Of a stretch of 54,326 bases of DNA, positions 45,215-47,756 are shown in pieces. The position numbers were made by a program, and so were the translations under genes. Origin of the DNA: a virus; IMG/VR virus record IMGVR_UViG_3300051215_000040, positions 1 to 54,326 of that record; one strand, written 5' to 3'. Under the pieces are notes generated by a model. That model worked only from the letters and a program-made list of their open reading frames with translations. It did no database searches and had not been told where the DNA came from. Every line of letters begins with the position of its first letter. Positions within the stretch are counted from its first letter, which is position 1.

Positions 45215-45519
45215 TTGTCGTCCCTCACCAGCGGCTCGCCCATGAACGTGGGGGCTTGTTTCTCGTGCAGCTCATTCATGGCGGTCCGGTAGTCGCTGAG
45301 CGTTTGCATCGCCTCGTCGTACCAGGGACCGCTGTAGCGCGCCAGGACGCATTCGAGGTCCAGCGCTAGCCGATGGGCAAAGCGCTGGGCGACTTCATTC
45401 ATGGCCTCGCCAATCTGGTCAAACTCTGCATTGATGTCGACACGCGTTATTTTCATCACGCTGGTGCCGTTTTTAAACACATCGTCAAGCATTGCGTGAC
45501 ACATCTGTTCCGGCGTCAT
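45211..45519 (-). CDS. Hypothetical protein (102 aa)
   Basis: The start is MTPEQMCHAML at 45519, which overlaps the upstream stop. The helical product contains ITRVDINAEFDQIGEAMNEV, QRFAHRLALDLECVLARYSG and a C-terminal QTLSDYRTAMNELHEKQAPT. No motif; an early operon protein of unknown role. Confidence 0.68.
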   Translation of the reverse strand: MTPEQMCHAMLDDVFKNGTSVMKITRVDINAEFDQIGEAMNEVAQRFAHRLALDLECVLARYSGPWYDEAMQTLSDYRTAMNELHEKQAPTFMGEPLVRDDK

Positions 45520-45710
45520 TCGTCTGCCTCCATAAAGCTCACCGGCATGCAAACGCACGCCCGGTCCTTACTGTTGGCCACCACCACAAACGACTGGCGG
45601 TGCGGGTTGTGCGTCTGCTGCGGATGGTCCCACCAGCGTCTGCAGTTGCGGCAGTTTTCGTCGGGCTGCTGCGGGCGGCAGCGCGTGTAGTCGAAGGGTA
45701 GGGGGGTCAT
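45516..45710 (-). CDS. Cys-rich putative zinc-binding protein (64 aa)
   Basis: The start at 45710 overlaps the GHKL gene stop as ATGA. Five Cys residues (CRPQQPDENCRNCRRWWDHP, then ACVCMP) and His residues point to zinc binding, as in many phage proteins with an NCR-CRRW core. Direct coupling to the GHKL ATPase may reflect joint function, but this is unproven. Confidence 0.7.
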   Translation of the reverse strand: MTPLPFDYTRCRPQQPDENCRNCRRWWDHPQQTHNPHRQSFVVVANSKDRACVCMPVSFMEADE

Positions 45711-46795
45711 GCTTTCCATCCTATAGATGTGGTGATCAGATCTTTGAAAGCCTCAATAGACTTACTGCGCATTTCGCTGCGGTTGGCGCTTAGCCACTGG
45801 CGCAGGCACTCGGTTGGTGATTGCACGGCAACCAGCTGGCGCGTCTCTTTGACATATGAGGGCGCGTTGCTTATGGCGTAGTGCATGCCGCCATTGACAT
45901 AGACGGTCTTGGTGAGGCCGCGCCGAATCATCTCTTTAAGCTCGGTTTGAGACCCTGCGACCAGTGCGTCGGGGTTGCTTTTGCGAAACAGTTGGTAGCA
46001 GGCCTCTTTCACCATCTCAGGGCAGCCGTACTTCACATATTCAACGTCCTCGGCCCCGGCTTGCACCAGTTCGGCGATCTGGTCAAACTCTTTAGTCTCA
46101 AACCACATTTCCTTGGTGATTGATTTCAGATCCCAATCTGCAACGGTCTGGCGATCGCGCTCCAGCCGGATGAATTCCGGCTTTATGTTGTAGCCGTACT
46201 TCAGCTCTGTTTTGCAGATCAACAGCCCGCCCACGTAAAGTTCACCTGGCCGCTCCATCAAAATGTCTCCGTAGCTGGTCATGCGGATGGCCCCAATGTG
46301 GTCTTGCATGCGAATGCAGGATGCCTTTACCTGCTCAATGTCCGCACCAGAAAGTCCGTGCACAACAAATGTGAGGCCCTTGTTGCCACGCACCGGAGAC
46401 TGGCTTTCTTCAATGGCCAGCAGTTCTTCACCAAACTGCCGGTTGAATCGGAAGCGAGGCTTCCACAGCACGTCGCCATTCAGCATGTCCACGTCGTAGC
46501 CCATGCGCGTCAAAACCAGCAGGGCGATTTTGTAGCCCTCACCAAAGCTGCCGATGGCGTCCTTGCTGTCTGCCTTGCTGGTTGCTCCGAGCAACAATGT
46601 CTGTGGACTGAGTTTGGCAAACTCTGATGTGAGGTGCAGTGAGTAGGTTTCGTCGTCTGATTTCTTGAATGCGTAAACGAATGGCGAGTCGCTGTCGAGC
46701 GCGTTCTGGATTAGCTCGCGACAAGCCTCAGCCAAACCCCAGTGGCTGACGTAGTTCTTGACCAGCGACAGCTCGTAAATTTTCGGTCCAAACAT
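45707..46795 (-). CDS. Hsp90-like GHKL ATPase
   Basis: The 362-residue product begins in a TAATG overlap. An N-box ACRELIQNALDSDS puts Glu27, Asn31 and Asp34 in the Hsp90/GyrB-type positions, and a nucleotide-lid motif GSFGEGYKIALLVL follows near 82. The usual DxGxG between them is not evident; the matching region reads LHLTSEFAKLSP. A beta/alpha second half contains YNIKPEFIRLERDRQTVADW. The GHKL fold binds ATP; activity here is uncertain because of the missing motif. Flanked by Cys-rich 45516 and DnaJ-type zinc protein 46795. Confidence 0.75.
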   Translation of the reverse strand: MFGPKIYELSLVKNYVSHWGLAEACRELIQNALDSDSPFVYAFKKSDDETYSLHLTSEFAKLSPQTLLLGATSKADSKDAIGSFGEGYKIALLVLTRMGYDVDMLNGDVLWKPRFRFNRQFGEELLAIEESQSPVRGNKGLTFVVHGLSGADIEQVKASCIRMQDHIGAIRMTSYGDILMERPGELYVGGLLICKTELKYGYNIKPEFIRLERDRQTVADWDLKSITKEMWFETKEFDQIAELVQAGAEDVEYVKYGCPEMVKEACYQLFRKSNPDALVAGSQTELKEMIRRGLTKTVYVNGGMHYAISNAPSYVKETRQLVAVQSPTECLRQWLSANRSEMRSKSIEAFKDLITTSIGWKA

Positions 46796-47178
46796 TATTT
46801 CTCCTTCGGTTTAAAAGCCTCATCCCAGCTCAGGGCGTCCAAGCTGGCCATGTCGGTCCATTTCAATGCGCGGGCCGTGGCCAGCGTGTAGGTGTTCTTC
46901 CAGTCGGTGCTGGCGTCGGCGTAGGTCGCTTGCGCCTTGGCGATCGCTGCGGGCTTGGACCTGGCCACCACGTTGTAGAGCCGCAGCCAAGCTCCCGTCT
47001 CGCGGTGCTGGCCAAACACGGCCCACTTGGGTGATGGCTTGGTGGGCTTGGTGTACTGCTTGCCTGTGCCCCGGCAGCGAAAACACTCGCCGCCGATCAC
47101 GTTGGAAAACTGCGACATGCGGCCGGACCCGGCGCAGCGGCTGCAGGCGTATGCCTGGCGTGGAGCTGCGTCGCTCAT
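46795..47178 (-). CDS. DnaJ-type zinc-finger protein (127 aa)
   Basis: The start is MSDAAPR at 47178 (ATGA overlap with the upstream stop); a longer frame to 47394 is an artefact of overlap. Two CxxCxGxG repeats (CSRCAGSG near 14 and CFRCRGTG near 34) form a DnaJ-like zinc site. The C-terminal part (WAVFGQHRETGAWLRLYNVV, then WTDMASLDALSWDEA) is unlike DnaJ. Its stop shares TAATG with the GHKL ATPase start, so the two are co-translated. Confidence 0.75.
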   Translation of the reverse strand: MSDAAPRQAYACSRCAGSGRMSQFSNVIGGECFRCRGTGKQYTKPTKPSPKWAVFGQHRETGAWLRLYNVVARSKPAAIAKAQATYADASTDWKNTYTLATARALKWTDMASLDALSWDEAFKPKEK

Positions 47179-47432: not shown

Positions 47433-47756
47433 TTAGTCCTCCAGTTGCTCAGTGATTTCCTGCTCGATGCGCTCGCGGTCCGCGTCGGTTGCCTTGCGCT
47501 CAAGCCAGGGGGCGGGGCGGCCGCGCCGGTCGAGGATGTCAAACTCGCACTCGGTGTAGCCGTAGTAATCCATGTCGCTGTCGCAGGTGTGCGCGCTGCC
47601 CCGGTGCGGGGACTGGCGAAAGAAATGCGTCACCTTGGCGATGCAAGGAATGCCAGCGACGCGTGTCTCGATTTCCATGTGTGAATCTCCTGTGTGAAAT
47701 GCGGCCCCAAGAAACGGGGCCAGGGCCTGTTGCATGATTGGGTGAAGGTTGCTCAT
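47433..47756 (-). CDS. First gene of the minus-strand early operon (107 aa)
   Basis: The ATG at 47756 follows a weak ACGGGG. The N-terminal phrase LHPIMQQALAPFLG is common at the start of early proteins in betaproteobacterial phages. The middle contains a Cys pair, and the acidic end has DADRERIEQEITEQLE. Function unknown. It faces the divergent control region 47757-47882. Confidence 0.7.
   Translation of the reverse strand: MSNLHPIMQQALAPFLGAAFHTGDSHMEIETRVAGIPCIAKVTHFFRQSPHRGSAHTCDSDMDYYGYTECEFDILDRRGRPAPWLERKATDADRERIEQEITEQLED

Follow-up and report, generated by a model that had tools for sequence, protein, structure and literature searches.

A phage GHKL-type ATPase with an altered adenine motif, encoded in a variable early-operon slot

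A gene in the early operon of a tailed phage encodes a member of a catalogued, unstudied phage protein family. The protein represents a GHKL-superfamily variant rather than a textbook member, since it is predicted to have the superfamily's fold and lacks the adenine-binding aspartate of the DxGxG motif. In textbooks, this adenine-reading residue is part of what defines a GHKL ATPase. In the present family, which is spread across phages of many hosts, it has been exchanged, with all other catalytic residues maintained by selection, and the proteins would need another mode of nucleotide recognition or another nucleotide. The lasting interest of the family lies in this retention of the phosphate machinery after loss of the adenine-reading aspartate. 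The window (the whole stretch of DNA analysed) is a 54,326-base tailed-phage record encoding a primase, a terminase, a portal protein, a helicase and a RecE-like exonuclease. Within it the ATPase gene is an exchangeable cassette in a variable slot of the densely overlapping early operon (Table 1).

Table 1. Features of the ATPase gene and its immediate surroundings in the window.
Feature	Position	Strand	Remarks
GHKL-type ATPase, 362 aa	45707..46795	-	PHROG 6077
N-box E27/Q30/N31/D34	within 362-aa ATPase		
Degenerate DxGxG, S57-K61	within 362-aa ATPase		reads S57-E-F-A-K
Lid G82-K89	within 362-aa ATPase		GSFGEGYK (82-89)
Middle-domain L211-ERDR-R215	within 362-aa ATPase		
Helical C-terminal domain, about 219-362	within 362-aa ATPase		
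CxxCxGxG protein, 127 aa, upstream of ATPase	46795..47178	-	two CxxCxGxG motifs and conserved C-terminal region
Cys-rich protein, about 64 aa, downstream of ATPase	45516..45710	-	ORF extendable to 45719
Variable cargo slot between two zinc genes	45707..46795		unrelated genes in L150, L117, L124, L126, L127, L133; nearly empty in L139

The three open reading frames of the preliminary description are present, all on the minus strand, and the residues it assigned to the N-box (Glu27, Asn31, Asp34) and to the lid are as it gave them. Both gene junctions that it reported are also there: the CxxCxGxG gene and the ATPase gene meet in TAATG, with a 1-nt overlap at 46795, and the ATPase and Cys-rich genes meet in ATGA (45707-45710). 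Such overlaps are generic to the operon. The Cys-rich protein probably starts at the ATG at 45710 rather than at 45719, because relatives start there and this start gives the ATGA overlap. A minus-strand gene at 47433-47756 adjoins the slot and recurs in sister phages; it resembles Gp49 of phage YuA (Pfam PF20788, E 1.3e-24).

To place the ATPase among known proteins, its sequence was compared with profile libraries and phage records. It matched PHROG 6077, a phage protein family catalogued without function, as a full-length member (E 3.4e-94, residues 5-361 of 362). Tblastn found relatives with 24-52% identity in 112 phage records, and the hosts of these phages show a mosaic spread that includes Pseudomonas, Vibrio, Pectobacterium, Escherichia, Erwinia, Klebsiella and others. 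Pseudomonas phages PaMx11 and Epa5 are examples of cultured phages with a homologue. Profile-guided scans for ATPase relatives yielded some 80 loci from IMG/VR and another 12 from bacterial genome assemblies, some of them weak. Depositors had named the relatives hypothetical protein, HATPase, histidine kinase-like ATPase, RIIA or sacsin-like. The preliminary description called the system undescribed, which holds in part: the family is catalogued and individual records carry names, and no function is on record. A literature search for PHROG 6077-type ATPases found only RIIA and general GHKL work. Pfam did not recognize the window ATPase, and its HATPase_c_3 model matched 8 of 67 relatives. The NCBIfam sacsin ATP-binding model matched the N-terminus weakly in 38 of the 67 members, and the window ATPase scored below its curated cut-off. 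A search with PADLOC for known defence proteins returned no match for the window ATPase; the PADLOC TmtA models gave weak matches in up to 12 of the 67 relatives (alignment A3; best E 3.5e-7). With the PHROG 6077 match, the 112 phage records and a dN/dS of 0.075 relative to locus L003, whose ATPase is 88% identical, the observation lies far beyond chance.

An AlphaFold2 model of the ATPase (pLDDT 94.3, pTM 0.85), made from an input of 67 phage and bacterial-contig sequences, confidently predicts a GHKL (Bergerat) head followed by a middle/transducer fold, in agreement with the fold for which structure prediction had been put forward as a test. The model aligns with HSP90/TRAP1 across the N-terminal and middle domains (271 residues, Z 12.4, rmsd 5.8 A), with MORC2 (Z 11.2) and with the ATPase regions of type II topoisomerases (Z 10.7-11.2). 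A structure search gave 35 PDB matches at E <= 0.001; topo VI-B was also matched. Because MORC and the topoisomerases score close to HSP90, the HSP90 match shows the superfamily only. In BFVD, a viral structure library, the named matches outside the ATPase family were mostly RIIA. The C-terminal 144 residues modelled alone reached a pLDDT of 92.5 and had no significant PDB match, which does not imply a new fold.

The replacement of DxGxG noted earlier was confirmed and extends across the family. Ser57 falls on the adenine-binding aspartate in alignments to Hsp90 and to RIIA. Among the 66 relatives with a residue at this position, 64 have Ser, Asn or Thr (48, 12 and 4, respectively) and two have Asp. 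The loss of DxGxG is a family trait, and a quirk of the window protein alone is ruled out by the family-wide replacement. Both Asp members, L096 and L099, carry an intact DKGKG (L096:109-1536, L099:4983-6404) and share 22-26% identity with the window ATPase; several Asn members retain part of the DxGxG glycines. A family tree was built with the adenine-motif columns removed and rooted on the Asp members, the root being assumed and many forks poorly supported. In this tree Asn occurs frequently on the deep branches, and Ser occupies a large clade that includes the window ATPase. A stepwise erosion of the aspartate, from D to N and then to S or T, is suggested, not shown.

The rest of the catalytic site is almost invariant. 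E27, Q30, N31 and D34 each occur in 66 of the 67 relatives, and G70, K74, G82, G85, E86, G87, A91, R97 and R215 in all 67. In addition to the low dN/dS relative to L003, a value of 0.019 was obtained relative to contig L002. These ratios and residues show strong purifying selection on a gene that is not decaying, and a decayed pseudogene was ruled out on the same grounds. From its position in the LERDR motif, R215 may be the counterpart of the gamma-phosphate-sensing arginine of Hsp90 (R380), a middle-domain residue that contacts the gamma-phosphate (PMC12280139). In yeast Hsp90, the change of Asp79 to Asn (D79N) abolishes nucleotide binding (PMC10148809), and ATP binding by the window ATPase is therefore not to be assumed. 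In the phage protein, other contacts or another nucleotide would have to compensate for the lost aspartate, or else the ATPase would bind none. It is conceivable, and in our view improbable, that losing the aspartate while keeping the phosphate-handling and hydrolysis residues reflects changed base specificity and not loss of function. The protein would then be a clamp driven by, or sensing, a non-ATP nucleotide, for example a guanine, inosine, modified or signalling nucleotide.

We further examined the two neighbours of the ATPase gene. The CxxCxGxG protein was compared with DnaJ, which has a J-domain and four CxxCxGxG motifs; its two motifs correspond to one half of the DnaJ zinc domain, a J-domain is absent, and its match to Pfam DnaJ_CXXCXGXG (E 0.0017) is below the cut-off. 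Its C-terminal region, KWAVFGQHRxTGxWLRLYNV, is highly conserved, and Gp29 of Acidithiobacillus phage AcaML1 is a relative with 36% identity. The Cys-rich protein is a putative zinc protein. Profile searches of all fetched loci recovered the full trio from three places only, the window phage and contigs L001 and L002, whose ATPases are 100% and 99% identical to that of the window. At over 100 further ATPase loci, some of them redundant and L003 among them, neither zinc gene lies in the 3-5 kb flanks covered by this count, and a search through the complete sequences of 16 genomes or records with the ATPase gave one weak zinc-motif match. Conversely, the zinc pair occurs without the ATPase in at least 13 sister contigs, and a search repeated with positive controls found no ATPase anywhere in 16 sister records of 31-91 kb.

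The slot itself differs between sister phages, most clearly in L114/L150. There the flanking genes share 95-98% identity with their window counterparts, yet the interval holds three unrelated genes, of 164, 123 and about 84 aa, whose starts and stops overlap in the same way. Other sister phages have other small genes there, mostly of families without assigned function. The slot between the zinc genes was observed across window positions 45516-47178 and in L117, L124, L126, L127, L133, L139, L140 and L150. Pfam found no known anti-defence genes among the slot cargo; with PHROGs, the cargo fell mostly into families of no assigned function, with one weak match to a MazG-like pyrophosphatase, in L150. 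Because unrelated slot genes in sister phages overlap likewise, the overlaps reflect dense packing and not functional coupling. The zinc-protein neighbours are chance company for the ATPase, because sister viruses carry other genes in the same slot; the two zinc genes belong to the phage backbone.

The preliminary description had proposed a coupled three-gene unit and had named independent occurrence of the genes in relatives as the outcome that would speak against it. Such occurrence is what the neighbourhood survey found, in both directions. The overlapping junctions in the window phage and the two near-identical contigs are what a functional chaperone-like unit of the three genes would have in its favour. 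Against it stand this independence and the replacement of the ATPase gene in L150 by three unrelated genes with the same overlap style, which leave such a unit extremely improbable; as a conserved unit, the three-gene system does not exist and is already refuted. The survey of 85 diverse ATPase loci, in which opposite-strand ORFs overlapping the ATPase gene were ignored, found no widely recurring neighbour family. Seen most often, and mainly within phage lineages, were a DnaQ-like exonuclease at 11 of the loci, a Dda-like helicase at 7 and a ligase-like gene at 6. No conserved partner gene was thus found at these loci beyond phage-lineage synteny.

Counter-defence functions are common among phage accessory genes. 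We tentatively favour, as the most likely reading, that the ATPase gene is a stand-alone accessory cargo of tailed phages and encodes a soluble GHKL clamp with an RIIA-like role in counter-defence or host takeover, working without an RIIB partner. Among phage proteins whose function has been studied, RIIA comes closest in both profile and structure comparisons, and the ATPase gene behaves as exchangeable cargo. RIIA/RIIB modules counter RexAB, and RII modules suppress Rex exclusion in diverse phages (PMC11879866); RIIA has been discussed as a counter-defence protein with a GHKL domain (PMC7824862). From these similarities we infer the counter-defence function. In such a mechanism, the ATPase would bind an NTP mainly via its phosphates, with the N-box, the lid glycines and Arg215, and the triphosphate would drive its closing into a dimeric clamp in the manner of Hsp90, MORC or RIIA. 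The middle or C-terminal domain would bind a client, and the ATPase, acting alone and independently of the zinc proteins, would target some host or phage protein at an early stage of infection. The chaperone-like or anti-defence role considered earlier thus stays conceivable for the ATPase, with RIIA as its closest functional phage relatives, and falls for the three-gene system. Against an RIIA-like role, DxGxG is retained in RIIA, whose C-terminal part is also longer and of a different kind. Moreover, replication and recombination genes adjoin the ATPase in several phages, which fits a DNA-linked role equally.

Such a DNA-linked GHKL ATPase, resembling MORC, MutL or topoisomerase VI-B and aiding phage replication or recombination, seems to us rather unlikely. 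It would be in line with the comparable similarity to MORC2 and topoisomerase ATPases (Z about 10.7-11.2), with the topo VI-B matches, with the recurrent exonuclease, helicase and ligase-like neighbours together with RecE/exonuclease VIII genes, and with the RecE-like exonuclease gene in the window's own operon. However, no Toprim, nuclease or known DNA-binding domain was detected in the ATPase, its neighbours vary between phages, early regions are rich in such genes anyway, and sister phages live without the ATPase. A chaperone that remodels phage or host clients as Hsp90 does, independently of the zinc proteins, is less probable again. HSP90/TRAP1/HtpG are the top structural matches, the N-box and lid are Hsp90-like in wording, and the sacsin model matches the N-terminus weakly in more than half of the members (38 of 67), yet MORC and the topoisomerases rank close, no conserved partner co-chaperone was found, and the 144-residue C-terminal region matched no solved fold, so that the Hsp90 dimerisation domain appears to be absent. 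The evidence fits a DNA-linked or a chaperone role almost as well as the favoured RIIA-like role.

The ATPase can be set against several known systems. MORC and sacsin-type GHKL ATPases have similar structural scores or, for sacsin, a model that matches many members, but the ATPase has none of their CW, coiled-coil or sacsin-repeat parts. Hsp90, HtpG and TRAP1 share with it the E..N..D N-box, the GxxGxG lid, the middle-domain arginine and the N-M fold, whereas identity is about 14% and the ATPase lacks the adenine aspartate and, apparently, the Hsp90 C-terminal dimerisation domain. RIIA of T4 and relatives, likewise the product of an early accessory phage gene, has the GHKL N-terminal and middle domains in common with it, and hhalign matched the ATPase to six RIIA N-termini with 94.7% probability (E 5.7e-8, 139 columns). 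In RIIA, DxGxG is kept (RDFGPG in T4; D81, G83 and G85 are invariant in the six sequences), unlike in the window ATPase, and RIIA proteins have 600-1000 aa, another C-terminal part and a pairing with RIIB. A single-sequence search with T4 RIIB, which misses divergent RIIB, gave no match in the window or near the 85 ATPase loci. From PHROG 6077 the window ATPase shows no essential difference, its degenerate DxGxG being found throughout that family. With this family, the stand-alone GHKL clamps among phage accessory genes would number two types, RIIA being the other.
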